Positions 10,965 through 45,806 of a DNA stretch of 45,806 bases are shown here, piece by piece. How positions within the stretch are numbered: position 1 is the stretch's first letter; the number at the start of each line of letters is the position of its first letter. The stretch comes from Caldifarciminota bacterium. Lineage in GTDB: Bacteria; Hydrothermota; Tepidihabitantia; SM23-42. A program made the translations under genes and the position numbers. The notes beneath the pieces are model-generated. The model was not told the DNA's origin. It saw nothing but the letters and a program-made list of their open reading frames with translations, and did no database searches. The stretch spans positions 1,522,992-1,568,797 of the forward strand of contig CP070686.1 of NCBI GenBank assembly GCA_020353055.1, given 5' to 3'.

Positions 10965-12365
10965 TCACCCGGTTACACCGGCTTTTTCTGGAGTTTTCGC
11001 ATCGTAATATTTCTTAAGATACTCATCACGGACCCGCTTCATCTCACCGCGTGGTACCATACGCAGCAACTCCCAGCCGAGATCGAGAGTCTGCTCGATA
11101 GTCCTGTCTTCATACTCACCTTGTGATATGTAGCGCCCCTCGTATTCCTGAGAGAATTTCAGATAGATCTTATCCATATCGGTCAACGCCGCCTCACCGA
11201 GAATCACTGCGAGCTCTGCCGCTTCCTTACCACGCGCATAGCACGCAATCAATTGATTAAACAAATCTGCATGGTCTTCTCTGGTCTTACCCTTGCCGAT
11301 TCCCTTGTCCTTCAACCTCGACAAAGACTGCTGCACATCGACAGGTGGTGATACTTTTCTTCTGTAGAGACCACGCGAAAGAATAATCTGCCCCTCGGTA
11401 ATATAGCCGGTCAAATCCGGTATCGGGTGGGTCTTGTCGTCTTCTGGCATAGAGAGTATAGGGATCAATGTAATTGAACCCTTCTTTCCCTTTATACGAC
11501 CGGACCGCTCATAAACACTTGCCAGGTCAGTATAAAGGTAACCCGGGTATCCGCGCCGGCCGGGTATCTCCTTACGCGCTGCAGAAATTTCCCGCAATGC
11601 CTCGGCGTAGTTGGTCATATCAGACAGCACCACAAGTATATGCAAGCCTTTGGTGAAAGCGAGGTACTCGGCGACCGTAAATGCCACTCGCGGAGTTGAA
11701 ATCCTTTCGATTGCGGGGTCATCGGCAAGATTGAGAAAAAGTACAACCCGTTCCAGGGCACCCGATTTGGTAAAGTCCTGGATAAAGAAATTTGCTTCTT
11801 CAAAAGTAATGCCCATTGCCCCGAAGACAACGGCAAATTCCTCCTCTTTCCCTAATACCTTCGCCTGCCTCACAATTTGCGCAGCGACCTTATTGTGAGG
11901 CAACCCAGACCCGGAGAATACTGGCAGCTTTTGCCCACGCACGAGCGTATTAATCCCATCAACCGAAGAGATACCGGTTTGAATAAATTCATTGGGATAA
12001 TCTCGCGCAGTTGGATTAATTGGAGCGCCGTTAACGTCAAGAAGCGCCTCGGGAATTATGGCAGGACCTGCATCCTTAGGACGCCCCAATCCGTCAAAGA
12101 CCCTGCCCAACATATCATCGGAAACTCCTATGCTGAGGGTCTTACCGAGAAAACGTACGCGACAGTTCTGAACATCAATACCGGTTGATCCTTCAAAGAT
12201 CTGAACGAGTGCTCTGTCTTTATCAACCTCTAAAACACGACCGCGTTTCTTGTCACCGGTTCCTGTGTATATTTCAACCAACTCTTCGTATTTCGCGCCG
12301 TCGACTCCTTCAACGAGCAGAAGCGGACCGGCGACATTTGAGATACTACTGTATTCCTTGATCAT
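10965..12365 (-). CDS. atpB: V/A-type ATPase subunit B (non-catalytic head subunit)
   Basis: The 466-residue protein matches the regulatory B subunit: [19 protein letters not shown] replaces the P-loop, as expected for this subunit, and [37 protein letters not shown] and [14 protein letters not shown] follow. The start ATG overlaps the stop of subunit A by four bases (ATGA), with AAAGGGGA upstream. It forms the A3B3 hexamer with the A subunit. Confidence 0.95.
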
Positions 12366-14191
12366 TTTCTGTCCCCTTTCCCCTTCTCATTGTCTCCATG
12401 TCCCGTTGTCTCCTTCTCCGTTTCCCTTTGTTTTGTTTCCCCCTTGATCATACCGTCGAATTCCGCGGTTAATTCATCCTTGATCGCATCAATTGTATCA
12501 AGTTTCGATTCCTCAAGATATCTCATCCTCGCGATCTTATCTCTAATGTCCATCTTCACGATATCATCGAAGGCAACACCTCGTTTAAGAGCCTCACGCG
12601 CTTTATTATAGTTGAACATGCACACCGACAGCATTTTATACTGTTTCTTGAGCGATGCATACGTATCGATCTCATGAAAAGCATTCTGATGCAGAAAATC
12701 TTCCCGTATCGAACGCGCACCTTCGAGTATGAGACGATCCTCAGGAGAAAGCGCATCGACACCGATGAGCCTGACTATCTCCTGCAATTCCGCCTCTTGC
12801 TCGAGCAATTTCATGGCCTCGCTTGACAGATCGGTGAAATCCTTCGCGGTCATCTTATTCACATCCTCGGCAATATCATCGATGTAGAGTGAATACGAAT
12901 TCAACCATGAGATAGCCGGAAAGTGCCGCTGGTATGCTAGTTTATCTTCAAGACTCCAGAAGACCTTAACAACCCTCAATGTCGCCTGTACAACCGGGTC
13001 TGAAAGATCGCCACCGGGTGGCGACACGGCACCAACTACGCTCAGTGCTCCTTCCCTCTCGGGACGACCCACCGTCTTCACTCGACCCGCCCTTTCGTAG
13101 AAAGAACTTACTCGCGCCGCAAGGTACGCCGGATACCCCTCTTCACCCGGCATTTCCTCCAACCGTCCTGAAATCTCACGCATCGCCTCAGCCCAGCGTG
13201 ATGTTGAATCGGCCATAACCGCAACTGAATAACCCATGTCACGGAAATATTCGGCTATTGTAATGCCAGTGTAAACAGACGCCTCACGGGCAGCAACCGG
13301 CATGTTGGATGTGTTGGCGATCAAGACCGTCCTCTTCATAAGGGGTTCTCCAGATCTTGGGTCCTTGAGTTCCGGAAACTCTAATAAAACGTCGGTCATT
13401 TCATTACCGCGTTCACCACAACCGATGTACACGATAATTTCTGCGTCCGCCCACTTGGCGAGCTGATGTTGTATCACCGTCTTTCCCGAACCAAAAGGAC
13501 CAGGACAACATGCCGTGCCTCCCTTGGCTATCGGGAAGAAGGTATCGATGACCCGCTGCCCCGTCGACAAAGTCAATGAAGGAGCCAGCCTTTCTTTGTA
13601 CGCCCTTGGAATCCTGACCGGCCAACGGTGCATCATGGTCAAATCATGTTTTTCTTTATCATGTTCAAGCGAACATATTACATCTGTCACCAGAAAATCG
13701 CCTTGTTTTATGTCCTTAATTTTTCCCTGCACGCCCGGCGGTACAAGAATCTTGTGCAGAACTAATGTGGTTTCCTGCACTTCACCGAGAATATCCCCGG
13801 GACTGACTTCGGTCCCCGGTTTCACGGTTGGTTTGAAGTGCCACTTCTTGTCTCGCTCCAGGGCAGGCACCTCAATCCCTCTTGTGATGTAATCGCCCGT
13901 GTTCTCTTTTATGATATCCAACGGACGCTGAATACCGTCAAAAATCGATTCGATAAGTCCTGGTCCTAATTCGACAAAAAGGGGCTCGTCGGTCATGTAC
14001 ACCGCCTCGCCGGGGCCTATCCCCGACGTATCCTCGTAGACCTGGATCGAAGCCAGATCACCGGCAAGACCAACGATCTCGCCAACAAGCCTCTCGTCAC
14101 TAACACGCACGACATCATACATCTTGCTGCCAGTCATTCCCTTTGCCACGACCAATGGGCCAGATACCTTAGTGATTTCGCCTTTCCTCAT
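12362..14191 (-). CDS. atpA: V/A-type ATPase subunit A (catalytic)
   Basis: The catalytic subunit, 609 residues. It has the P-loop GPFGSGKT near residue 235, the bulge insertion typical of V-type A subunits, [16 protein letters not shown], and [31 protein letters not shown] in family order, here split by ordinary residues. The last 25-30 residues are an unusual low-complexity tail rich in Lys, Glu, Thr and Gly, encoded by a purine-rich stretch (12362-12447, pyrimidine-rich on the plus strand). That tail also carries the ribosome binding site for subunit B. The start ATG overlaps the F-subunit stop by four bases. Confidence 0.95.
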
Positions 14192-31793: not shown

Positions 31794-32036
31794 TTAACGT
31801 ATCAACAGCAACTTTTCCACTGCAATGTAATCCCCTGCTGCCAGTTCTAAGAAATAGACACCCGCGGGCAATTTTTGGTTGAATATGTCTCGACCGTCCC
31901 ACATAAAGCACCATGCCCCTGAAGAATAAGATGAAGGGTATAACAATTCCCTGATGAGCCTTCCAGCAAGATCATATATCGTGACTGTCGGCTCAGAGGA
32001 ACCTGTCTGCTGTGACGAATGCTCGATCCTGATCAT
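31794..32036 (-). pseudogene. Orphan C-terminal sorting domain, 3' half of a broken secreted-protein gene
   Basis: This frame encodes 80 residues forming almost only a T9SS type A-like CTD: VTIYDLAGRLIRELLYP, WDGRDIFNQKLPAGVYFLEL and a final EKLLLIR. It has no signal peptide. Its ATG overlaps the TGA of the upstream signal-peptide-bearing frame, and the CTD frame stays open further upstream across the junction. The two frames together look like one gene that lost its middle part and shifted frame. Confidence 0.65.
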
Positions 32037-32605
32037 GGCCTCGCCATGGACTCTGTATACGGACCTCCTGATCTATCGCAGGCGACCATTCCCTTATCCT
32101 CGAGAACACCGGGAACGCCATTGATGACGATCACAGCCGGACCCCATGTCAAACCTCCATCAGTCGATTTATAACAAAACAAACCATTTGGGTCGGTCAC
32201 CGAACCCGTATGGCCTAATACATGCGCATAGAAATTGCCCGCCGTATCAACGGTCACACCTGGGTCACTATCGTAAGCATAGTAGGGATCAACGAACAGA
32301 CCCTGACTCCAAGTCAGCCCACCGTCAAAAGAACATCCGTAGCCAACTTGACGGTAGCCTAAACGAAAATCCCTCCACACTGCAACGAGATTAGTTGAAT
32401 CCTTAGGATTAATGACAATCTGATCTTCGTTCTGAAGTTCGGTAGTTGTATCATCATTTATCTTGATATTCAAATAGGCCGAATCATCCGGCCATGAAAA
32501 CGCGTAAAGACAACTAAATATTGCTACCGTCAGAAAAAGCAAACAGCACGGAATAGATTTTCCCGCTATCACGCCTTTCACGTCCGCTCTGCATACTTTG
32601 TTCAT
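32033..32605 (-). pseudogene. Secreted BNR/sialidase-like protein, N-terminal part of a broken gene
   Basis: A signal peptide (CCLLFLTVAIFSCLYA) is followed by about 150 residues with two Asp-box motifs (SFDGGLTW, STDGGLTW), typical of BNR beta-propellers. The frame ends abruptly with CDRSGGPYTESMARP just as further propeller blades would be expected. The CTD fragment 31794-32036 follows in another frame. A large internal deletion near 32035-32065 explains both. A GGGAGG ribosome binding site and a good promoter remain, so a truncated product may still be made. Confidence 0.65.
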
Positions 32606-34952: not shown

Positions 34953-35062
34953 TAACCAATTAGGTTGATACTTTTGCTTCGTAGATCGATTATCCCGGTT
35001 TGATATTCTCAAACAAAAAGAGAAACCTGAGCATCCCCCAAAGCGGCAGAGTGATGACCACC

Positions 35063-36349
35063 TTATCTTATTTTGACCACCTTCCGAACGATTCTACTAT
35101 CCATCTCCACGAAATATATGCCAGGTGCAATGTTTCTTGGCTCCACGCTCCTTCCCGTAATGTCAAAGACTTTACACTTCTTGCCTTCGGGCAGTTGCAG
35201 GGATCCACAAAAGACTACAGGAACATACCAAGGCACTGAAACTTCTGCAATCTTATCCTCATCAATGCCTGTGAGTGAGTCCCGAATCACCGAAATACTG
35301 GAATCGTAACGATTTATTACATACGTTCTATTGTAAATATCGTTCCAAGCAAACGCACCGGGGGAATTTCCGACCGCAATGGTTTTGATTACCGTATCTG
35401 TTGCTCCATCAATGATCATCACATTGTCATTATGGCGGTTAGAACAATAGACCTTATTATTTGTAGCATTCCAGAAAAGACTATGAGGACTATCTCCAAC
35501 CGGTAATGTCGTGATTACCGCATCGGTCACCCCGTCAATGACCGTCACATTGTCACTATATTCATTGCAGCAATAGACCTTATTATTTGTAGCGCTCCAA
35601 CAAAGATCACGAGTAAGATCTCCCGCGGCCACTGTCGTAATTACCGAATCAGTCATCCCATCGATGATCGTCACGTCGCCACTACCGTAATTACTGCAGT
35701 AGATCTTGTTACCAATTGCATTCCAGCACAGGGCACGGGGCATATCTCCAACCGCCACTGTACTAATTACCGAATCGGTCACCCCGTCAATGACCGTCAC
35801 GTTATTACCGCGATAATTACCGCAGTAGACCTTGTTGCCAGTTGCATTCCAGCAAAGAGCCAAAGGAGTATCAACGACCGCAATCGTGGTGATGACCGAA
35901 TCGGTCATGCCGTCAATGACCGTCACGTTGTTACTGCCAAAATTACCGCAATAAACCTTGTTGCTTGTTACGTTCCAGCAAAGCACACCAGGTACATTAC
36001 CGACAGCAACTGTAGTTATGACCGAATCGGTCATGCCATCAATGACCATAATGTTGTCACCCCAAGCGCTCGTGCAATAGACCTTGTTACCAGTTGCATT
36101 CCAGCAAAGAGAACTGGGAAATCTGTTAGTCGTAATCGTGGTGATCACTGCATTAGTCACTCCGTTAATGACTGTTACGTTGTCACTGTACCAATTGGCA
36201 CAGTATACTTTTTTACTTGTCGTGTTCCAACAAAGAGCCCAAGGATCACCTGAAACCGATATTGTCGTTTCAAGCCATTGAGCAGACAATAGCGCAGGCA
36301 TGACTAGCACAAAGCACATGATGAGTGAATATCTACGATCATACATCAT
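35063..36349 (-). CDS. Secreted YVTN-type beta-propeller protein with C-terminal sorting domain
   Basis: A signal peptide (YSLIMCFVLVMPALLSAQ) is followed by about eight copies of a 42-residue YNCE/YVTN blade (for example NVTVIDGVTDSVISTVAVGD, then CWNA...NKVYC). At DNA level the repeat has a period near 126 bases. The last 70 residues form a CTD with CKVFDITGRSV, APGIYFVEMD and a final RKVVKIR. It is probably exported to the cell surface. I chose the ATG at 36349, supported by GGGAGG and the signal peptide; the frame continues upstream to 36514 but would then cross the promoter. Nearly every blade carries Cys residues (ALCWNA, KVYC). Confidence 0.8.
   Translation of the reverse strand: MMYDRRYSLIMCFVLVMPALLSAQWLETTISVSGDPWALCWNTTSKKVYCANWYSDNVTVINGVTNAVITTITTNRFPSSLCWNATGNKVYCTSAWGDNIMVIDGMTDSVITTVAVGNVPGVLCWNVTSNKVYCGNFGSNNVTVIDGMTDSVITTIAVVDTPLALCWNATGNKVYCGNYRGNNVTVIDGVTDSVISTVAVGDMPRALCWNAIGNKIYCSNYGSGDVTIIDGMTDSVITTVAAGDLTRDLCWSATNNKVYCCNEYSDNVTVIDGVTDAVITTLPVGDSPHSLFWNATNNKVYCSNRHNDNVMIIDGATDTVIKTIAVGNSPGAFAWNDIYNRTYVINRYDSSISVIRDSLTGIDEDKIAEVSVPWYVPVVFCGSLQLPEGKKCKVFDITGRSVEPRNIAPGIYFVEMDSRIVRKVVKIR
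35118..35199 (-). repeat. 82-bp CTD-coding segment, copy 1
   Basis: This segment matches 36754-36835 at 81 of 82 positions by my reading. It codes for the central part of the CTD (GKKCKVFDITGRSVEPRNIA). The genes around the two copies are otherwise unrelated. Confidence 0.85.
35400..36200 (-). repeat. Tandem ~126-bp repeats coding for propeller blades
   Basis: A conserved block equivalent to ATGACCGTCAC on the plus strand recurs near 35412, 35538, 35665, 35791, 35917, 36043 and 36169. The period is about 126 bp, equal to one 42-residue blade. The copies differ by a few bases each. Confidence 0.75.
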
Positions 36350-36698
36350 AAATACCTCCCTTCTACTACCTACAGCTCTACTACCTACAGCCGACACCCC
36401 AACTGACTGCAACAAAGGGAATTGTACGTTATTATAGATCTCAGCCGGAAAACTGTCAATAGTGGTCCTTGCACGAAGCGCAACAGGACTTGCGGATGTT
36501 GACTCTGGAGCCATCGTGATGAGGCGGCCATCAGATCAGAATTAGCGCGTGAGTTCGGATCAGCCATCGACAGTAGTGACTACGTTGCTTCGCAATCTAT
36601 TTCTGCGATAACGGATAAATTTCCCAAAAAGAAATTGTATGCTCATTTTTCTTAAACAAATCACTGATTTGCGAAAGATGGCAATATCGATATCAATG
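36350..36698. other. Intergenic region: leader, promoter and a CTD relic
   Basis: The 349-base gap contains the YVTN gene leader with an exact 15-bp tandem duplication (36362-36376 and 36377-36391) and the promoter at 36431-36459. A short minus-strand frame at 36580-36618 ends in IAEIDCEAT, resembling a decayed CTD end. No intact gene is visible. Confidence 0.55.
36431..36459 (-). promoter_or_regulatory. Promoter of the YVTN propeller gene
   Basis: On the minus strand, TTGACA at 36459-36454 and TATAAT at 36436-36431, spacer 17 bp. The leader to the ATG at 36349 is about 75 nt. Confidence 0.8.
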
Positions 36699-38243
36699 TC
36701 ACCTCACCTTTACTACTTTTTGAACTATTTTGTTGTCTACCTCCAGGAAATAGATGCCAGGTGCAATGTTTCTTGGCTCCACGCTCCTTCCCGTGATGTC
36801 AAAGACTTTACACTTCTTGCCTTCGGGCAGTTGCAATGATCCGCGGAAGATGGTTGCACCGATGCTCACTCGATCCACGGGTCCCACTATCGGCAATTCC
36901 TCAATACCGATAGGCGCAGTGAGCCAGGGAACAAAGTCAACATAGTCAGACACCGAGTCGCCCAGACCGGCCGGATTTACTGCAGGATGATACGGTCCAG
37001 TTTCATCTCCCCACCAATTCGAGTCGGCACTGACCATGACAGTCGTATCAATATTGCATATGCCGTAGCCGACATTATCACATATGTCGTTATGATGTAT
37101 CTCAGGGCTCGAATGGTTACCCCAGACATCTGGTTGGCAGTATATACCGTTCCCATAATTGCCTAAAATAATACAGCCACTAACAACCGGTGAAGAACCG
37201 TCACAAACCATGCCGCCGCCAAATCCTGTCAGCGGTATCACGTTTTCTGACACGATATTGCCGGTAAAGGTTGGCGAAGCTTGATAGCAATAGATCCCGC
37301 CTCCATCCCAGACAGCCGTATCGTTACTTACTGTATTATTGCTGATGGTCGAGGAAGACCCCTGGCAGTGTATACCGCCGCCGCAATATCCTGTATTACC
37401 CGTGATGTTGTTATCATCGATGAATGGTTCAGAACTGTCGCAACCGATGCCGCCACCAAAATTCGCATAATTACCAGTAATAGTGTTAGCTGTTATAACA
37501 GGCGCGGATCTATAGTCACAGGCGATACCGCCGCCTATCCAGCCACACATGCATTCACCCGTTGCGTTATCAGCGATGACATTGCCAGTGATCGTCGGCA
37601 TCGCGTTACCAAAGCAATAGATACCGCCACCAGCAACTGTAGCATAATTCCCACTGACGGTATTTTCCGCGATGAAAGGTGCCGAGCTGTCGCAGCAGGC
37701 AATACCGCCGCCTCTTACTCCATCATGCGCTCCTCCCCCGTTCTCTGAAACAACATTTCCGGTAATGGTCGGTGAAGAATTACCTAGGCAGACAATACCA
37801 CCGCCAAATGCAGCGCCACCAACCCTGTTGCCAGTGATGATGTTATTCGTGATCGTCGGTGATGAGTTTTCACAGAGGATACCGGCACCGTGGTCATAAA
37901 TACCGGTTAGATACCCGTTACGAACAGTAAATCCGCTGATCAAGGTTGCCGAGTCAGTTCCGGTGGATATTTGTATCACTCTTCCCGTACTGCCACCATC
38001 TATGATCGTCGTATCCGGACCCAATTCACTAACGAGATGTATTCCCTGCACATTCGGCCAGACGATGTTTTCATAGTAGACACCTGGCCCAACGGACACC
38101 GTATCGCCATTGGCACAGGAGTCCAGGCAATCCTGAATACAGTTGAGTGTAGAATCAGGGTGCACATACCAGATGGTTGCATGTGCTGTGCGTGTGACGA
38201 GCAGCAAAGCGATTGCTACGATAAATACACGTATATGCTTCAT
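36699..38243 (-). CDS. Secreted right-handed beta-helix protein with C-terminal sorting domain
   Basis: A signal peptide (MKHIRVFIVAIALLLVTRTAHA) precedes WYVHPDSTLNCIQDCLDSC, the start typical of NosD/pectate-lyase-like proteins. Many turns of a parallel beta-helix follow (SPTITNNIITGN, APVITANTITGNYANFGGGI, SSTISNNTVSND). The end is a CTD of the same type as in the YVTN gene, including a near-identical 82-bp DNA stretch, and finishes QKVVKVR. No catalytic residues stand out, so a carbohydrate-binding or adhesive role is a guess. I chose the ATG at 38243, preceded by AAGGAGG; the longer frame to 38333 has no such site. Confidence 0.8.
   Translation of the reverse strand: MKHIRVFIVAIALLLVTRTAHATIWYVHPDSTLNCIQDCLDSCANGDTVSVGPGVYYENIVWPNVQGIHLVSELGPDTTIIDGGSTGRVIQISTGTDSATLISGFTVRNGYLTGIYDHGAGILCENSSPTITNNIITGNRVGGAAFGGGIVCLGNSSPTITGNVVSENGGGAHDGVRGGGIACCDSSAPFIAENTVSGNYATVAGGGIYCFGNAMPTITGNVIADNATGECMCGWIGGGIACDYRSAPVITANTITGNYANFGGGIGCDSSEPFIDDNNITGNTGYCGGGIHCQGSSSTISNNTVSNDTAVWDGGGIYCYQASPTFTGNIVSENVIPLTGFGGGMVCDGSSPVVSGCIILGNYGNGIYCQPDVWGNHSSPEIHHNDICDNVGYGICNIDTTVMVSADSNWWGDETGPYHPAVNPAGLGDSVSDYVDFVPWLTAPIGIEELPIVGPVDRVSIGATIFRGSLQLPEGKKCKVFDITGRSVEPRNIAPGIYFLEVDNKIVQKVVKVR
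36754..36835 (-). repeat. 82-bp CTD-coding segment, copy 2
   Basis: Matches 35118-35199 with a single difference that I can see (A or G in the CCCGT-ATGTC region). The match drops off on both sides. Confidence 0.85.
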
Positions 38244-38756
38244 ACTTCCTCCTTCCCTAGTAAGAAAAAACAATAAATACCACTGAAAAGATCTACTCAC
38301 AGCCCCGATCAAAAAAATACGTAAATACGACAATCAAATGTTTGTTTATAATCGTAATTCAGCTTATCACCCGAATCTCACATGTTTTCTCACAACTCAT
38401 GACACGTGAAAAAATGGGGAGTGACAGCATAGATCACATCAAAACGGTAACATATGCTGGCAAGAATGAAGAAATATTCACCTTTATCTTGTGCTCACTA
38501 TATTGACAACTGCCCATGTATTTATATATTTACAGTACTTACCCAAAAGCCGTTATGTCGCAGAAACCGAACTAGCGCTTTAACTTAAACGGCTGTAACG
38601 CGGTTGTAGTAACACCTTGGTAAACTGGATTTTTTTGGCAGGGTCAATATCTGTTTGCGTAACAGGTAAAATGGAAAATACTACAAACCGTAGCCTGTGA
38701 TCCTGGCGAACCCGCCGGTATTATGTTTGCAGGTTGCGGCAAAAAAGGGAGGAACG
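38244..38756. other. Intergenic region with a long possibly structured leader
   Basis: This 513-base gap separates two divergent secreted-protein genes. The plus-strand promoter at 38503-38530 leaves a leader of about 220 nt. In it, AGCCGTT (38548-38554) pairs with AACGGCT (38588-38594), and AACCG inside that loop (38565-38569) could pair with CGGTT (38601-38605), a possible pseudoknot. I found no convincing promoter for the minus-strand gene and no gene inside the gap. Confidence 0.5.
38503..38530 (+). promoter_or_regulatory. Promoter of the FG-GAP protein gene
   Basis: TTGACA at 38503-38508 and TATATT at 38525-38530, spacer 16 bp. It lies about 220 nt upstream of the start codon. Confidence 0.7.
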
Positions 38757-41516
38757 ATGCAATACGTATGTAAAACGTGGTTGGTCCTTGTTCTGTTAGT
38801 AGTAATCGTGATTATCGGATCAGGCAATTCCGATGTTTCGATGAAAAGTATTAAGATCAATGACCAATATGTGACCCCTGACTTCAGCAGATTTTCATGG
38901 ATAAAAATGGGGTCGTTCGAAGAAACACCGACACCAATACGCTGCACAGCTACCACGCCCAATGAGTACGCCTCGGGAATAAGGGCACCTGATTCTTTTC
39001 CTTCACCAGGTAATACGCCATGGGGGCTTGCTCCAGGTAACAATTGCATATGGCTTTCTGATATCGAAGGCGAGACGATATACAAAATAGACCCGGTGAC
39101 CGGTGCCGTTCTTACGCAATTTGCTGCCCCTGATCCCTGGACCAAAGACCTTGCATTTGACGGACAACACCTCTGGGCGAGTGGTAACATGCAGAGCGAT
39201 ATATATAAGATCGATACGCTGAACGGGGCCATCATGAGCGTTTACAACAGTCCTTCGCTGAATCCATTAGGACTCACCTATGATGGTACATATCTCTGGC
39301 ATGCATCGCATCCCGGAACAAACACAGAACCCACGCAAATCTACAAGATCGACCCGGCAAACGGTCAGGTCATAACATCTTTTCCCCTGCCATTTGAGTG
39401 GGCGAATGGTCTAGCATATAAGGACGGACACCTGCTCGTGAGTGATACTGATCTCGGGATTATTTATGAGATCGATCCGAACACCGGAGAAATCGTTGAT
39501 GCATACGGGGCTGCAAGAGATAATCCACTGGGACTTGCATATGATGGCACCAACATATGGAATGTTGATGATCTCTTTGATTTTCTATTCTGGTACACTC
39601 CTGCAGCTGCGCCTATTGCGGTTGCCATTAACCAACCGCGCGTGGCAAATACATACCCCACCTATCAGCCGATCAACGTTATCGGCACAGTGCAGGGTTC
39701 TGATCTCATATCCTGGAGCGTAGAATACGCCGAAGGTGAGACACCCGGAACCTGGGCCCTTATCGATAGCTTGCATCATACCCCCAAGGTCTACGATACA
39801 CTCTTACAGTGGAACGTGAGTGGTCTTGCTCAGAATTACTACTGGGTCAGAATCAATGCCACCTGTGCCTCTGGTGTGGACACATCACATCAGGTGAGTT
39901 TCCATGTCGATCCTGATATCATGAGCGGATGGCCGTTAGAATGTAAAAATATCTCGCCGATCGCTATCGCCGATCTCGGTGACGGAGGCGCGTATGAAAT
40001 AATCGCTGGCACAGCTCATAATAATGAAATAGAGTGTAATGTTACGGTCTGGGATCTGTCCGGTAATAATGTGTGGCAATCACCGGACGGCATAAATAAT
40101 TCTCACAAACCAGTATCCGTAGGCAATACTGACTGTACTGGCCTCTATGAGATAGTCACCGGATATCCAACCCAGACAACTGGAACCGATTCGTGTCCGG
40201 TATATGTCATGACCTACAACGCAGGCATCTATCAGAACTGGCCCCAGTATGGAATAAAGACTGGTTATTACTGGAACACAATGATATCGGCACTCTCTGA
40301 CATTGACCTGGACGCAGACCTCGAGATCTTCACTGGAGGGATGGAACTCCATGGATGGCACCATGACGGCATAGCGTACAGCGGTGCGTTCATCGGCTCG
40401 ACCGTCTCTGATCCAGCGATCGGTGACATCGATTGCGACAATTTCGACGACTTTGTTTTCATGAATGACAGCGCCCTGGACGTCCGTGATAGATACGGGA
40501 ATTCCATAGCAGGATTTCCCGTTTCAATGCCCGCGGGCATTGGCGCCAGCTTCCCGGTAATCGGTGACGTCGATAATGATAGTGTACCCGAGATTATCCT
40601 GGCGCTCGACGACATGAAAGTGTACGTGGTGGATTCGGAAGGAACTGTACTCCCTGGCTGGCCTAAGACTATTAACGGTTCGTACTCAAATTCACCCGTG
40701 GTCGGAGACATCGATAACGATAACGACCTCGAGATCATCGTCGTGAGCGGTATGTTTCCTCAATACTCACGTGTCAGCGTGTTCGAACATACCGGCAACA
40801 GCTACTCTGGCTGGCCCAATCAGCTCAGTGATAGGGTATTCCGCTATTTCAACATGCCCGTGATCGGAGACGTAGACGGTGATAGCGTGCCTGAAATTAT
40901 CATGGGTTTTGAAAGCGTCAGCGGGTACGAGGAGTTGTACGCGTGGAACAATAACGGCGATGTCATTTCTGGCTGGCCGAAGATCCTAACCGAAATCGAG
41001 GGCTACGGCATAACCGGTTCACCGGTGCTCGGCGATTTTGATGATGACGGCAATATCAACATAGGGGTCAGCTCGAATGTATACTGGGTAGGAAATTCAG
41101 AGATTTACGTTTGGGATCTGCCGTTCCCCTATCTGGAGAGTACGATGGAATGGCCAATGTTCCGGCACGATCTGTACCGGACAGCAAATTATCACCATGC
41201 TGGAGAGGTTGGTGTTGTAGAAGACCGAAGTAATCGCCTCATAAGCGAGGCATTCGGCTTGACAGTTTACCCATCGGTGAGCAGTAATATCGTCCGCGTC
41301 ACAACTCACATACCTTCAGACTGCGGGACCGGGGAGATTTCGATCTACGATGCGACTGGCCGCCGAGTGTATCACTATCCTCATGTTAATATCGGCAATC
41401 AGCAGGCGATCATCGATTTCGCTGCATTAGATAAGACGGGCAGTAACGGCGTCTATTTTGTCACGCTACGTTCAGCCGAATCAACAGTGGTCAAGAAGGT
41501 AGTGATCGTGCAGTAA
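38757..41516 (+). CDS. Large secreted protein: N-terminal propeller, FG-GAP repeats, C-terminal sorting domain
   Basis: A signal peptide (WLVLVLLVVIVIIGSG) is followed by an SMP30/NHL-like propeller (LTYDGTYLWHASHPG, IYKIDPANGQVI) up to about residue 280, an Ig-like spacer, and from about 400 a run of FG-GAP/VCBS blades with Asp-rich calcium-type loops (GDVDNDSVPEIIL, GDIDNDNDLEIIVVSG, GDVDGDSVPEIIMGF). The end is a CTD (ISIYDATGRRVYHYP) finishing VVKKVVIVQ. It is 919 residues long and probably surface-exposed. I chose the ATG at 38757, which has GGGAGGAA upstream and begins the signal peptide; the frame from 38697 lacks both. Confidence 0.85.
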   Translation: MQYVCKTWLVLVLLVVIVIIGSGNSDVSMKSIKINDQYVTPDFSRFSWIKMGSFEETPTPIRCTATTPNEYASGIRAPDSFPSPGNTPWGLAPGNNCIWLSDIEGETIYKIDPVTGAVLTQFAAPDPWTKDLAFDGQHLWASGNMQSDIYKIDTLNGAIMSVYNSPSLNPLGLTYDGTYLWHASHPGTNTEPTQIYKIDPANGQVITSFPLPFEWANGLAYKDGHLLVSDTDLGIIYEIDPNTGEIVDAYGAARDNPLGLAYDGTNIWNVDDLFDFLFWYTPAAAPIAVAINQPRVANTYPTYQPINVIGTVQGSDLISWSVEYAEGETPGTWALIDSLHHTPKVYDTLLQWNVSGLAQNYYWVRINATCASGVDTSHQVSFHVDPDIMSGWPLECKNISPIAIADLGDGGAYEIIAGTAHNNEIECNVTVWDLSGNNVWQSPDGINNSHKPVSVGNTDCTGLYEIVTGYPTQTTGTDSCPVYVMTYNAGIYQNWPQYGIKTGYYWNTMISALSDIDLDADLEIFTGGMELHGWHHDGIAYSGAFIGSTVSDPAIGDIDCDNFDDFVFMNDSALDVRDRYGNSIAGFPVSMPAGIGASFPVIGDVDNDSVPEIILALDDMKVYVVDSEGTVLPGWPKTINGSYSNSPVVGDIDNDNDLEIIVVSGMFPQYSRVSVFEHTGNSYSGWPNQLSDRVFRYFNMPVIGDVDGDSVPEIIMGFESVSGYEELYAWNNNGDVISGWPKILTEIEGYGITGSPVLGDFDDDGNINIGVSSNVYWVGNSEIYVWDLPFPYLESTMEWPMFRHDLYRTANYHHAGEVGVVEDRSNRLISEAFGLTVYPSVSSNIVRVTTHIPSDCGTGEISIYDATGRRVYHYPHVNIGNQQAIIDFAALDKTGSNGVYFVTLRSAESTVVKKVVIVQ

Positions 41517-41672
41517 TCGAAAACACACACTACTTTGCTGAATGTCTTGTTAATAGAATATGACTGAATGGCTTCTTGAATACTGAAGTATTACACTACT
41601 TGAAATAGCGACCTTCAAGTAGTTACTTTGGTATGCTTGTGTTGTACATTGCTGAGTACGTTTGGACGAAGA

Positions 41673-41707
41673 AGAATGCCCCGCTCTTTCAAAGAGCGGG
41701 GCATTCT
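41673..41707. terminator. Strong bidirectional terminator hairpin
   Basis: AGAATGCCCCGCTCTTT (41673-41689) and its exact reverse complement (41691-41707) flank a single base. The outer bases form a long GC-rich stem, with A- and T-rich parts near the tip. It sits between two convergent genes (stops at 41516 and 41730) and probably ends both. Confidence 0.85.
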
Positions 41708-41729
41708 CATCTGATAGATTAATATGGAC

Positions 41730-43574
41730 TTACCGTACGAGCAGTAATTTCTTGGTTGTCGAATTATCCCCTGCCTGCAGTTTCAAAAAATAAACACCAC
41801 TGGCGACCTGTCTTCCTTTCTCGTCATGACTATTCCATGTCACCTGATGCGTACCTATTTGCTCATACTGGTTCACCAGTGTTCTCACTAATTGGCCAGA
41901 TACATTATATACATCAAGCGAGACATACAGTGGAGTCGTGAGTTGATATTCGATAACCGTATTCGTCCGCATTGGATTAGGTGATATCTGGCCTAGACCA
42001 AAATATGAGCAGTGCTCGCCCGGCTTTTCAGCAATGCCGGTATAGGTTATCGGTATTACCTTTAACCGAATCATGTTATCGCCAGAAACACCTGGTTGCC
42101 AGACACCACCTATATAGTTCCACATATTACCTGGGTAATCTAAGGTAGGGTCCCTGAGCACACCGCATGAATCCCCCGGGGCAATGATATGTCCGACAAC
42201 AATGCCGAGCGGGTTATCTGTAATTATGTTGAGGTCCGTGATGTCCACGGTGTACCATTGGAGCTGAGAGTTGTATAGCTCGGCGACCGAGTCTATGAAT
42301 GAACCAGGGGCTCCTGCAGTTGCTTCATAAATGCGTATGTCAAAGGTTCCTGGATCACTTATGAGTAGCTTTACTTGATGGAGCAATCCGCTGTCTATGC
42401 CTACTTCACTGAATTCAAATCGAACATATTGTCCATCTCCGCCAGTTGTTGCAGCCGGCACCCAGTATGGCTGTCCGTCATCGTAGATTATGGTACGTGC
42501 ATTCGTTACCTCGAAATTGTAGGTAGCAGTAGTTGCCCAGTTACCTGCATTGTCAGCAGCCAAGACAGAGTACCAGATATCAGTATGCCAGGTCTGAGCA
42601 GGGATATCTGCTTCATAGACATCTGGACCTGCACTCGTCATGTGCACGTCTAGTGTCGGACCATTCTCTATCTCATAATGCAGTATAACCGAATCCGGAT
42701 TGACACCCGATCCGTCATCGGTGACCGTAGCCGTCACCGTATAATTACTGAGCGTATCTATTGTGTCAGGAAGAGGCGTATGTGTAATAAGGGGTGGTTG
42801 CAGGTCAGGTGGTGGTGTATCAGCCATGCGGGCATTGTCGATGAACCAACCCTGGCCATGAGATAGTGGATCTGAAGCAAAAGTAATACGAATTCCTATG
42901 AAATCGCCAATTCCAACGTAGCCCAGGGCCTGGAGATCCTGAGAAGCAACACTTACCCAATTAGGCGTAGTGCTGTAGCAATACGCCCAGGCATTGCCCA
43001 AAGATCCTGTTCCGGCCAATTGTGCATCGTAAGTAGGATTAAGATGCCCCTCGGCAAGTGAATCGATTTGCACCCACGTTACTCCGCTGTCATTAGAAAT
43101 CTCAACAATACCTCCGTCAAAATTAGTGGCAGGACCCTCGAACGAGGACCAGTAATCCATGGATAAATAGACATGATTCCAGGTGTGTGCACTGCCCCTA
43201 ATGGCAGTCAAATAACCCGTCTGGTTGCCTGTATACATTGCAATATCACCAGCGGGAACTCCTGCAAATCTATATCCTGAAGGGGCCGTGTTTGGACCAT
43301 AGGTATCAAGAGTATCTCTAATACCCCAGGCATACCCCGAAGTTGTCCACGGTATGTCGGGTCCGTACAGAGTATCTCTCTCGAATTCATCGTAATATTC
43401 CGGCCTCAATGCGTCGGAAAAAGATTTGGGCAGTGAAGGGAGAGAAGGTTTGAACTCTAATTCGATGACGTTTCCCTGTCGAGGTTGATCTTCCGAGACG
43501 ACTGCGCTGGTCACGCTAACGAAGATGCCAAGGATGCACATAATTGCTGGAAACACGTGGTTTCTACTTTTCAT
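41730..43574 (-). CDS. Secreted multidomain protein with type A C-terminal sorting domain
   Basis: A signal peptide (HVFPAIMCILGIFVSVTSA) precedes a jelly-roll/MAM-like domain (FDGGIVEISNDSGVTWVQID, GIRITFASDPLSHGQGWFID), as in immune-inhibitor-A-like and adhesion proteins. An Ig-like domain (VTATVTDDGSGVNPDSVILH) follows, then another jelly-roll segment. The CTD contains NPMRTNTVIEYQL, VSLDVYNVSGQLVRTL and ASGVYFLKLQAGDN and ends KKLLLVR. No protease HExxH motif is visible. AGGAGG precedes the ATG at 43574. Its CTD is of the KLLLVR type, unlike the KVVKIR type of the propeller and helix proteins. Confidence 0.8.
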   Translation of the reverse strand: MKSRNHVFPAIMCILGIFVSVTSAVVSEDQPRQGNVIELEFKPSLPSLPKSFSDALRPEYYDEFERDTLYGPDIPWTTSGYAWGIRDTLDTYGPNTAPSGYRFAGVPAGDIAMYTGNQTGYLTAIRGSAHTWNHVYLSMDYWSSFEGPATNFDGGIVEISNDSGVTWVQIDSLAEGHLNPTYDAQLAGTGSLGNAWAYCYSTTPNWVSVASQDLQALGYVGIGDFIGIRITFASDPLSHGQGWFIDNARMADTPPPDLQPPLITHTPLPDTIDTLSNYTVTATVTDDGSGVNPDSVILHYEIENGPTLDVHMTSAGPDVYEADIPAQTWHTDIWYSVLAADNAGNWATTATYNFEVTNARTIIYDDGQPYWVPAATTGGDGQYVRFEFSEVGIDSGLLHQVKLLISDPGTFDIRIYEATAGAPGSFIDSVAELYNSQLQWYTVDITDLNIITDNPLGIVVGHIIAPGDSCGVLRDPTLDYPGNMWNYIGGVWQPGVSGDNMIRLKVIPITYTGIAEKPGEHCSYFGLGQISPNPMRTNTVIEYQLTTPLYVSLDVYNVSGQLVRTLVNQYEQIGTHQVTWNSHDEKGRQVASGVYFLKLQAGDNSTTKKLLLVR

Positions 43575-43927
43575 CCAATCCTCCTGAAATTTATAGTAGG
43601 TCTACACTTTTCCATCTTCTTGTCGAAGATTCGAAAGAAGATTTAGCTAAATGGCGCCCATGCTTGTCTTAGTTCCCTTTTATTACGCTTTTGTCAGGTT
43701 TCTGTAAGCCTGTCTGGATTTCCTCACCTCCTCCCGGCTTCAGAAACAGGCGCCAGTTCACCCCCGTGTCATGATTAACTTCTAATAAGTGTAATTGGAA
43801 TGAGCGGGTTGTCAATGGCTACAAGGGCTGGTTTCCAATCTGAATATAGCTGCACATTCTTACTGCCACACCACAAGCGGCCTCCTCGCAATGAAAAATC
43901 ACCCCCTTGCATCCTTCTTGAATCGTA
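43575..43927. other. Intergenic region: long leader and promoter of the 43574 gene
   Basis: The promoter at 43788-43815 (minus) predicts a leader of about 205 nt. In sense orientation it contains GCCTGT and ACAGGC some 30 bases apart, which could pair, and two GGCGCC palindromes. I do not recognise a riboswitch family. No gene is visible. Confidence 0.45.
43788..43815 (-). promoter_or_regulatory. Probable promoter of the 43574 gene
   Basis: On the minus strand, TTGACA at 43815-43810 and a weaker -10 TACACT at 43793-43788, spacer 16 bp. Confidence 0.5.
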
Positions 43928-44041
43928 CTATCTAATTAGCAGCAACTTCTGTGTGGCAGTATAATCCCCCGCCGTGAACTTCAGGAAGTAAACACCACTG
44001 GGAAGTTTTCTATTAGTATCATCAGTGCCGTTCCAGATAGC
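43928..44041 (-). pseudogene. Relic of a type A C-terminal sorting domain
   Basis: The minus-strand frame encodes WNGTDDTNRKLPSGVYFLKF, then TAGDYTATQKLLLIR and a stop. This is the last third of a CTD like those at 41730 and 31794. A stop codon at 44042-44044 cuts the frame just upstream, and no signal peptide or body of a gene remains. Confidence 0.7.
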
Positions 44042-44160
44042 TTAATTACCATAGCAGAACGCCGGCAAAAACCTCGTCACCGATAAGTCATCGGGCTGTC
44101 ATTTGATAACCGGGCAAATGAAGTGATATCCGGTTGGCAAAGCGAGCAAGTTAGGGAACG

Positions 44161-44188
44161 TTGACAAACTCTATTAATACCGTAGAAT
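44161..44188 (+). promoter_or_regulatory. Promoter of the methyltransferase gene
   Basis: TTGACA at 44161-44166 and TAGAAT at 44183-44188, spacer 16 bp. The leader to the ATG at 44204 is about nine nt, with no good ribosome binding site. Confidence 0.75.
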
Positions 44189-44203
44189 GATCAGAGTAGT
44201 TTT

Positions 44204-44980
44204 ATGAACAAGCTTCCTGCAAAGAGTAAAGACGAATTATATGCAAGGTGGAAGCGAGTGGAAGAATTACCATTCTCTGGCTGGGATTTCTCTATTGTCT
44301 CCACAACAACTAAAACAGAACCGTTGCCCTGGGATTACAGAAAGGAGGTTCAGAAGGTCATTGAAAGAAAGGAGACCCTTCTGGACATGGACACAGGAGG
44401 CGGAGAATTCTTGGCATCAATTCCAGAACTACCTGTCCGGACCTTTGCAACTGAGTCATATCCTCCAAACGTCACGTGCGCATACAATAATCTCCAGCCT
44501 TTAAATGTACAGGTTATTCAAGTAGACGAATCAGGAGTGCTCCCATTTAAGAACGGCAGCTTTGATGCAATCATAAACCGGCACGGCTACTATGACCCAA
44601 AAGAAATCCATCGAGTTGCCGAGAAAAGCGGAATATTCTTAACACAACAAGTTGGCAGTAAGGATTGGCAAGATTTAAAAAGTGCGTTGGGCTATCAGGA
44701 TACAGCGACGGATCGCTGGGATTTAGAGTACGCAAGTAAGCAAATCAAACAAGCCGGCTTCGAGATTATGGCCCAAAATGAGGTTACTGACAATAGGAGC
44801 TATTTCAAAGATGTGGAGGCGATTATCTATTACTTGATCAACATTCCTTGGGTCATATCTGATTTTTCAATCGACATTTATTTTGACAAACTTTTGGAAC
44901 TCCACAGACAGAGCATAGCACAAGAATGGTTAGTGTTTCTGCAACACAGATTCTTTCTTGCTGCAAGAAAATGGGAGTGA
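44204..44980 (+). CDS. Class I SAM-dependent methyltransferase
   Basis: A 258-residue cytosolic protein with a Rossmann-type methyltransferase core. LLDMDTGGGEFLASI is motif I with a glycine-rich SAM loop, FATESYPPN follows, VLPFKNGSFDAIINRHGYYD is the post-motif segment, and EIHRVAEKSGIFLTQQVG is the next strand. The C-terminal half is helical. The methylated substrate cannot be told; small molecules or rRNA are both possible. The gene is a single unit with its own promoter and a hairpin at its stop, set among secreted-protein genes, which suggests independent insertion here. Confidence 0.8.
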   Translation: MNKLPAKSKDELYARWKRVEELPFSGWDFSIVSTTTKTEPLPWDYRKEVQKVIERKETLLDMDTGGGEFLASIPELPVRTFATESYPPNVTCAYNNLQPLNVQVIQVDESGVLPFKNGSFDAIINRHGYYDPKEIHRVAEKSGIFLTQQVGSKDWQDLKSALGYQDTATDRWDLEYASKQIKQAGFEIMAQNEVTDNRSYFKDVEAIIYYLINIPWVISDFSIDIYFDKLLELHRQSIAQEWLVFLQHRFFLAARKWE

Positions 44981-44997
44981 CTGACTGAATCACTCCC
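44973..44997 (+). terminator. Terminator hairpin of the methyltransferase gene
   Basis: GGGAGTGA (44973-44980) pairs exactly with TCACTCCC (44990-44997) around a nine-base loop. The stem begins inside the stop codon region. The T-rich stretch downstream is weak. Confidence 0.6.
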
Positions 44998-45017
44998 CTT
45001 GTGCTACACTTTGCTTT

Positions 45018-45086
45018 TTATCTAACCTTCACCACCTTCTTTGCTTCGCAATCGATTACAACGATAAAAGAATAGATGACAATGAT
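45018..45086 (-). pseudogene. Relic of a C-terminal sorting domain end
   Basis: Minus-strand frame IVIYSFIVVIDCEAKKVVKV followed by Arg and a stop. It looks like the last strand of a CTD of the KVVKVR type. It lies directly behind the stop of the SBBP gene at 45094, so the locus carries two CTD ends in a row. Confidence 0.55.
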
Positions 45087-45093
45087 AAATACA

Positions 45094-45806
45094 CTACCTA
45101 ATCTTGATCACCTTCTGGACGATCTCATCATCTATTTCCACGAAGTAGATTCCTGGCTGAATCTTATCAGATTCCACAACCCTTCCTGTGATGTCAAAAA
45201 CTCTGCAATTCTTGCCGTCAGGTAATTGCAGGGGCCCGCGGAAGATGGTTGCCGTTATCTCGTGTCCATTCTTCAAAGTTAGTTCGTTCTCCAAAATACC
45301 CGTGGGTGAATATTTAATGGTCGCATAGTCCTGGTCAGTGCCGACACCTTCACTCCGTCCCGTAACGTATACGCTTCCGCCATTATGAACGGCAATGGCA
45401 AAAGAATAGTCGTCATAATTGTTCGGGCCATCATACCGTGCCACCCATTGCTCCACACCTGCTGAATCATACTTCACCGTCGCATAATCCGTCGCGTCAG
45501 TACCGTCACTAGGTCCAGTAACATAAATATTGCCTTCATGGTCAATAGCGATTCCAGCCCCCTCATCAGAGACGCTACTCGGGCCATCGTACCGTGCCAC
45601 CCATTGCTCAACTCCTGCTGAATCATACTTAACCGTCGTTATATCTTGACGCGTACCCACACCAGTACTACCCCCCGTGACACAGACACTACCTGCACTA
45701 TCAATGGCAATCGCCCTTGCGTAATCGTCTAAATGAGCCGGACCGCTATATCTTGACACCCACTGTTGTGTGCCCGCAGAATCGTACTTTATCGTTGCAT
45801 AGTCCC
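45094..45806 (-). CDS. Secreted SBBP-repeat propeller protein, C-terminal part (runs off right edge)
   Basis: The frame is open to the end of the window, so the 5' end is missing. It contains at least four SBBP beta-propeller repeats (YDSAGVEQWVARYDGP, AIDHEGNIYVTGPSDG, DYATVKYDSAG). It ends in a CTD (IFRGPLQLPDGKNCRVFDIT, GIYFVEIDDEIVQKVIKIR) of the same type as in the YVTN and beta-helix genes, but more diverged at DNA level. Such proteins are usually secreted or surface-bound. Confidence 0.85.
   Translation of the reverse strand, partial: DYATIKYDSAGTQQWVSRYSGPAHLDDYARAIAIDSAGSVCVTGGSTGVGTRQDITTVKYDSAGVEQWVARYDGPSSVSDEGAGIAIDHEGNIYVTGPSDGTDATDYATVKYDSAGVEQWVARYDGPNNYDDYSFAIAVHNGGSVYVTGRSEGVGTDQDYATIKYSPTGILENELTLKNGHEITATIFRGPLQLPDGKNCRVFDITGRVVESDKIQPGIYFVEIDDEIVQKVIKIR

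Follow-up and report, generated by a model that had tools for sequence, protein, structure and literature searches.

Tail fragments behind type IX sorting-domain genes of a Caldifarciminota bacterium as candidate scars of 3'-end exchange

The window analysed here comprises 45,806 nucleotides (C1:1522992-1568797) of the one-contig genome, 2,688,361 bases in length, of a Caldifarciminota bacterium. Genes in it end in sorting domains of the type IX secretion system (T9SS), and behind one of them, a gene with SBBP repeats, the end of a second sorting domain follows the gene's own stop. We propose that the last 19 to 20 or so codons of the short T9SS sorting domain, together with the stop and the 3' flank, form a module which genes carrying different passengers exchange with one another, and that such second ends are scars: displaced ends of one type (T) behind ends of another type (R). 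We put the probability of this reading at roughly 0.56. Two end types, a break in linkage near the conserved residues GIYF, the source of three relics, recurrent junctions and one double scar are directly seen. Displacement, with one-sided recombination as the means, is our best reading of how the scars arose, and is inferred from these observations.

The genome of the window (G000) was studied together with seven sister assemblies of the same genus, eight genomes in total and all from uncultured bacteria. G000 encodes the SprA translocon (TIGR04189, 390.1 bits at a cut-off of 200), which was found in none of 14 control genomes and makes type IX secretion plausible.

Results

Two types of gene end and a break in linkage

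Two classes of sorting domain occur in the window. The FlgD-like class (type 1) is represented by P0003 and P0004, with TIGR04183 scores of 42.0 and 44.7 bits, above the cut-off of 23. The short class (type 2) comprises P0001, P0002 and P0005 and scores below it; two type-2 tails scanned alone reached 17.8 and 19.6 bits, likewise under the curated value. The short domain is predicted from its sequence to act as a secretion-directing T9SS tail. Genome-wide, more than 100 TIGR04183 matches exceed the cut-off among the 150 of 163 G000 candidates that were scored, and a profile of the short domain gave 31 matches at E<1e-4; one (C1:2092295) has no passenger, and the other 30 lie in frames of at least 309 residues.

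A six-frame search for sorting domains in the eight genomes revealed 148 matches at E<=0.01. We took on 140 of these; the other eight (one from G000, seven at E 0.003-0.006) all lie in open frames of at least 338 residues, and three G000 domains are cut at the end of the locus used. The 3'-end type could be classified for 126 flanks, of which 26 carry a T terminator, the dispersed repeat R, or the word GATTGCGAAGCAA that closes R. The T end reads VVTQKVVKVR-stop followed by the terminator, the R end IVQKVIKIR-stop followed by R. Tails of the form [VA]V[TM]Q stand before 11 of the 12 T flanks versus 1 of the 14 R or word flanks (Fisher 2.7e-5, with tables filled by hand from tail and flank counts).

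We then asked how far into the domain this association reaches, using within-type minus between-type identity as the statistic in a set of 11 T genes and 13 R genes. No link to type is seen in the 32 residues ahead of GIYF (0.002, p 0.31), whereas one is seen in the segment from GIYF to the Q (0.153, p 0.0005) and in the last seven codons (0.085, p 0.0005). Sliding windows reveal nothing up to codon 29, then p 0.024 for codons 28-32, 0.004 for codons 31-35 and 0.002 later, with GIYF at codons 33-36. Three genes were not in this set: the orphan 2092295, which combines an R flank with a T-like tail; G003 C20:44046, which is truncated; and G004 120953, which the classifier had missed. With the first and last restored (11 T, 15 R), the front gives -0.003 (p 0.64) and GIYF to stop 0.094 (p 0.001). 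One gene per ortholog group gives 0.001 for the front and 0.111 for GIYF to stop, and G000 plus G001 alone give 0.006 and 0.087. Without the two P0002 orthologs, the front rises to 0.007 (p 0.073). Homologous passengers are found in 17 of 130 pairs across types, 5 of 45 T-T pairs and 18 of 78 R-R pairs, so that no link of type with passenger is visible. As type is linked to the last 19 codons and not to the 32 before them, tail and 3' flank look like an exchangeable module.

Second tails behind complete domains

Type linkage starts about where the scars start. Second tails of at least 16 bits, at most 350 nt past the stop, were found behind 10 of 136 stops, as against 0.2 per shuffled set and one on the reverse strand; the comparison with shuffled sequence proposed in the original prediction thus comes out in its favour. 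Four of the ten are orphan tails or the follower of a relic, which leaves six behind complete domains. With respect to end type, second tails follow 6 of the 14 R or word flanks (9 with decayed ones) and none of the 112 others, including the 12 T flanks. When the flanks were read, scars appeared at nine loci in three of the eight genomes:

G000: 895737, 903378, 1568088, 2092295
G001: C11:32923, C33:9396, C58:74295, and, decayed, C5:103407
G003: C22:35220

The relics start, within a residue or two, at one of two junctions, J1 (before GIYF) or J2 (before KVVKVR). At G003 C22 and G001 C5 a different hairpin stands where the word would be, so the word is not essential. A double scar is present at G001 C58, where GIYFIEVDGVVTQKVIKIR and its stop are followed by KKVVKVR-stop and the terminator. 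Long strings of relics were not seen in the scarred genomes, which have single scars (G000, G001, G003) and this one double.

Three points would suit chance or an assembly artefact: the shortness of the tails, at 7-20 residues, the division of four of the seven sister assemblies into at least 60 contigs, and three apparent orphans that proved to be contig ends. We nevertheless hold such an origin very improbable, given the 0.2 expected per shuffled set and the same architecture in a one-contig genome and two others. In all, 18 of the 148 six-frame matches lie in frames shorter than 150 residues; contig ends cut off 3 of these, another 3 have the look of frameshifted or truncated genes, and 12 are, by our own reading, body-less.

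The scar in the window

The end of the SBBP gene and the DNA behind it are composed of the following parts, listed in the gene's reading direction:

45094-45285 (-): complete short (type-2) sorting domain and stop of the SBBP-repeat gene, an R-type end (DDEIVQKVIKIR, stop)
45052-45093 (-): core of repeat R, 42 bases, between the SBBP stop and the hairpin, by BLAST and repeat model
45041-45051 (-): terminal hairpin of R, TTGCGAAGCAA, stem TTGC/GCAA with a GAA loop; the predicted fold is weak (-2.0 kcal/mol, z -0.96)
45018-45041 (-): displaced seven-residue sorting tail KKVVKVR-stop at junction J2, by sequence and by tail score against shuffles
44970-45010 (-): T-type 3' flank, GTAGCACA and the hairpin terminator GGGAGTGA/TCACTCCC, common to T-type gene ends
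44204-44980 (+): methyltransferase-like gene, convergent with the SBBP gene; a syntenic anchor in G001, G002 and G004

The second tail lies 52 nt past the SBBP gene's own stop (own end KVIKIR-stop). All 22 nt of 45017-45038 match the sorting-domain end of another gene, and the local tail score at this copy of the word, 46, was reached in 0 of 2000 shuffles (the T-end consensus for this scoring was typed by hand from gene ends). The original prediction was right that the SBBP gene is followed by a second end. Of the fragment it had placed at 45018-45086, 45018-45041 is sorting-domain sequence and the rest is hairpin and repeat R. The same order of stop, R, word, KKVVKVR-stop and terminator recurs at C1:2092220.

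The G001 C58 double scar adjoins the same methyltransferase gene, there behind a P0002 ortholog and not the SBBP gene. A relic beside this gene is thus common to G000 and G001 with different genes in front; the old end still attached was seen at no locus compared. In G004 and G002, the methyltransferase gene has another convergent neighbour, which shows no sorting tail by eye and yet a GTAGCAC..GGAGTGA terminator of the same kind.

The word GATTGCGAAGCAA consists of the hairpin TTGCGAAGCAA and two more bases. It occurs exactly three times in the 2.69 Mb genome (reversed control, 0), and it terminates R, so that IDCEA, its translation in one frame, is the repeat read in frame and misleading. 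The word was taken in the original prediction for part of the sorting domain; this we reject. A pattern search for the word in the eight genomes gave 18 hits, of which 9 follow sorting domains (5 in G000, 4 in G001), 8 stand elsewhere by our own reading, and 1 is unread. R itself is made of ATCAYTGTAATC units, with 10 core copies in G000 (BLAST); at E<=1, its sequence model finds between 14 and 49 matches in each of the eight genomes, many of them weak. A hairpin follows R in many of the copies read, often with a GCGAAGC core. GCGAAGC is described as an unusually stable DNA mini-hairpin, its melting temperature given as 78 C (PMC4686876). When seven R-associated hairpins were folded as DNA, z ranged between -0.96 and -3.37; the three that contain the word fold weakly, at -1.9 to -2.2 kcal/mol and z between -0.96 and -1.87. 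Some R copies stand in inverted pairs about 60 bp apart, and some just upstream of ribosome-binding sites. R resembles repetitive extragenic palindromic and miniature inverted-repeat transposable elements in being short, multi-copy, largely intergenic and often followed by a hairpin, and differs from them in its build of ATCAYTGTAATC units.

Origin of the relics

In G001, the three J1 relics that are intact have an identity of 0.88-0.93 with the ends of other genes and of 0.58-0.62 with the end ahead of them, which ranks 48, 53 and 76 among 119 tails (median tail, 0.60-0.62). These values speak against an insertion of R with a long target duplication, by which the second tail would be a copy of the first. 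R does stand directly behind the stop, and the relic directly behind the hairpin of R. The near-identical flanking copies expected of a transposon target-site duplication are missing, however, in three of the four J1 relics, which are no closer to the front tail than the median; for these three we reject the duplication, while J2 relics are too short to judge. As a general explanation we consider it highly improbable.

In pairwise comparison, the three G001 J1 relics differ by synonymous to non-synonymous changes of 7:2, 8:2 and 6:4, at a neutral expectation of 21-23% synonymous (no p-value is attached). From this excess, they appear to have diverged while coding and to have become scars separately.

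Tails behind other genes and in a second genus

A tail starting at GIYF also lies 52 nt past the stop of a KH-domain (khpA-like) gene in G001 and G003 of this genus and in G018 and G022 of a second one. Behind it, a GTAGCA-like box is present in G001, G003 and G018, and an GGGGAGTGA hairpin in G018 and G022. The neighbouring RRM gene is followed by a longer tail starting at KVF, which is intact in G003 and broken in G001 and at two places of G007. The khpA-like and RRM genes with these tails 3' of them are not secreted; gene names around these loci are our own reading. KH-side tails of three genomes are 95% identical, with synonymous to non-synonymous differences of 1:2, 1:2 and 0:3. Mostly non-synonymous, these differences are as expected of an inherited untranslated relic.

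From the second genus, 28 of 30 loci were taken on and 27 gave a domain. Judged by eye, two R ends of G022 continue into a T-like terminator at its right arm, perhaps a third type of junction.

The second tails might also be functional, either as an alternative C-terminus reached by readthrough or frameshift, or as a coding-derived 3' element kept for RNA reasons. This would agree with the synonymous bias between the G001 J1 relics, with the retention of the KH-side tail in two genera, and with a relic frame that is open from the gene's own stop to the relic stop in four of six scars, G001 74295 even being in frame behind a single TGA. The relic frame relative to the own stop is 0 in two of these six scars and +1 in four, though, with an extra stop in two; two relics have lost their stop, and the KH-side differences show no coding constraint. 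We therefore regard a function as unlikely.

Displacement or deletion

The proposed displacement would involve a T module (GVVTQKVVKVR-stop, GTAGCA box, hairpin terminator) and an R module ((D/N)xIVQKVIK(I/V)R-stop, repeat R ending in the hairpin). The R module would be laid over a T-type gene end and joined by homology near the conserved GIYF codons. On the far side, the joining would be non-homologous, the R hairpin being fused to the resident tail at J1 or J2. In this way the gene would retain a complete signal, while the resident tail and terminator would be pushed downstream as a scar. One-sided, that is homology-facilitated illegitimate, recombination may be the means.

Its chief rival is a deletion inside tandem arrays, running from the hairpin of a gene A with an R end into the sorting domain of a gene B with a T end, such that the body of B is lost and its tail and terminator are left. 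Tandem arrays of sorting-domain genes do exist, with four in a row in G001 and three or more in G003 C22, and the passenger-less sorting domain at C1:2092295 fits as well. Hairpins are, moreover, known end points of deletions. On the other hand, separate deletions would have to stop at the same two places, and deletion alone leaves the exchange of 3' ends between homologous passengers unexplained. We consider it a possible explanation, though not a probable one.

Several points weigh against displacement. No locus was found with the same gene before and after the event, and the P0002 orthologs differ in place and flank. The J1-J2 segment in front is already R-like at four of the five single J2 scars, so that the resident segment must have been lost. 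Five of the 14 R or word flanks have no scar (P0002, G001 10857, G002 1069357, G004 113567 and G004 1116621). VVTQ stands before one R flank and VVCQ before another, four VVTQ tails have neither flank, and the flank motifs were chosen after the flanks had been seen. The last 12 residues before GIYF give 0.011 at p 0.095. G000 895737, the fourth J1 relic, is not clearly foreign (best 0.72, own 0.67 at rank 8). The contig numbers of four sister assemblies count here as well, and among the 27 flanks of the second genus the classifier flagged T in none and R in one.

The original prediction had read the fragments as scars of repeated replacement of 3' ends or passengers. For 3' ends this agrees with the linkage of GIYF to stop, the three foreign relics and the double scar in a sister genome; replacement of whole passengers as the direct cause would be conjecture. 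We also considered a mobile cassette that comprises the whole gene up to the word (P0002 in three species); both flank and place differ.

More speculatively, and in our view doubtfully, the R end (last 7-20 codons, stop, R and hairpin, roughly 70-170 bp) could be a mobile unit that inserts in frame into sorting-domain genes, where it would displace the old secretion signal and restore it with its own, much as an island completes the tRNA gene into which it integrates with a new 3' end. T ends, too, would move about as portable terminators and reach even cytosolic genes, khpA among them.

Other fragments and neighbouring genes of the window

Further traces of sorting domains and copies of the word are located as follows:

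43928-44038 (-): body-less 3' end (36 residues and stop) of a type-1 (FlgD-like, TIGR04183) T9SS sorting domain, by profile match and DNA similarity to an intact gene
36699-36890 (-): short sorting domain of the beta-helix gene P0002, whose orthologs in G001 and G003 carry scars
36585-36597 (-): copy of the word GATTGCGAAGCAA behind P0002, without detectable sorting tail
35063-35254 (-): short sorting domain of the YncE-like propeller gene P0001
34973-34990 (-): degenerate word ATCGATCTACGAAGCAAA behind P0001, without detectable tail

The relic at 43928-44038 translates as IWNGTDDTNRKLPSGVYFLKFTAGDYTATQKLLLIR followed by the stop. In the whole-genome TIGR04183 search, it matched within an open frame of 37 residues at E 3.5e-4, with 22.1 bits against a cut-off of 23; scanned alone, it scored 25.2 bits. 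To the 3' end of the intact gene C1:2064122-2065672 it is 79% identical over 121 nt, bases past the stop included. DNA similarity to G001, G004 and G002 stops at 44093, 44094 and 44117, 55-79 nt to the right of the relic. By its sequence, it is a remnant of another sorting-domain gene of the FlgD-like class, with an end like that of C1:2064122-2065672; the sorting-domain end without a gene that had been placed at 43928-44041 is thereby confirmed.

Neither of two other candidates, a fragment at 36580-36618 and a similar word near 34980, is a sorting domain. The 36585 copy of the word has a local score of 8 at a shuffle mean of 6.2 (p 0.117) and the one at 34974 a score of 6 (p 0.756), so that no tail signal follows either, and we reject decayed tails at both places; IDCEA at the former is the repeat in frame, as above.

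The sorting-domain DNA of P0001 (35100-35205) and P0002 (36735-36835) is nearly identical by eye, as after a recent conversion, with passengers of different families. P0001 (36410-36490) and its paralog C1:2090571 have a common upstream region by eye, with a TTGACA-17-TATAAT promoter-like site. At 31794-32605, a BNR/sialidase-like gene (own reading) is split into two frames and carries a FlgD-like sorting domain at 31806-31889, a decayed secreted-protein gene. In addition to P0004 itself, two parts of P0004-like proteins, N-terminal (1-443) and C-terminal (337-614), lie 17 kb apart at C1:1583037-1584674 (-) and C1:1601925-1603499 (+), and the C-terminal part carries a different N-terminus (MDIDGFRKFLSNRKIDQ..). 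The protein of 12365-14191 (by our reading, the catalytic subunit of a V-type ATPase) matches candidate division TA06 DG_78 at 85% and WOR-3 bin1061 at 81%, which makes the host a bacterium of the WOR-3/TA06 type.

Comparison with known systems

In the one literature library searched, on type IX secretion with WOR-3, domain shuffling or sorting-domain recombination, no paper on such an exchange was found. The short domain resembles the T9SS type A sorting domain (TIGR04183 / PF18962) in its C-terminal position, GIYF-like motif and Lys-rich end. In length, the exchanged module comes close to the T9SS signal of HBP35, which lies in the last 22 residues (PMC11285876).

The closest parallel is the displacement of C-terminal tips in Rhs genes of Enterobacteriaceae, which have a constant front and an exchanged 3' end, with old ends downstream as silent strings (PMC2935791). 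To that extent, front and 3' end are decoupled in both systems, as our linkage test found, and displaced old ends lie downstream of an intact gene here too, as single scars and one double. In Rhs genes the tip is variable and the core constant, whereas here the exchanged part is a sorting signal and terminator, about 20 codons, and the passengers differ. No Rhs model was among the Pfam and NCBIfam hits of P0001-P0006, which lack Rhs/YD repeats in these hits.

For effector genes of the type VI secretion system in Vibrio cholerae, successive displacement has been described that leaves arrays of older 3' parts, and homology-facilitated illegitimate recombination has been proposed (PMC5361080). 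Both the older 3' parts and the proposed type of recombination are in good agreement with our reading. In V. cholerae, whole immunity genes are kept, with a proposed benefit, whereas only tail fragments are kept here.

If the exchange is true, a single short 3' piece can carry secretion signal and terminator together between genes. This would help to explain the presence of the same export tag on many unrelated proteins (30 short domains and the more than 100 TIGR04183 matches above cut-off), and would extend C-terminal displacement, as known from Rhs and effector genes, from variable tips to a constant sorting signal with readable scars.

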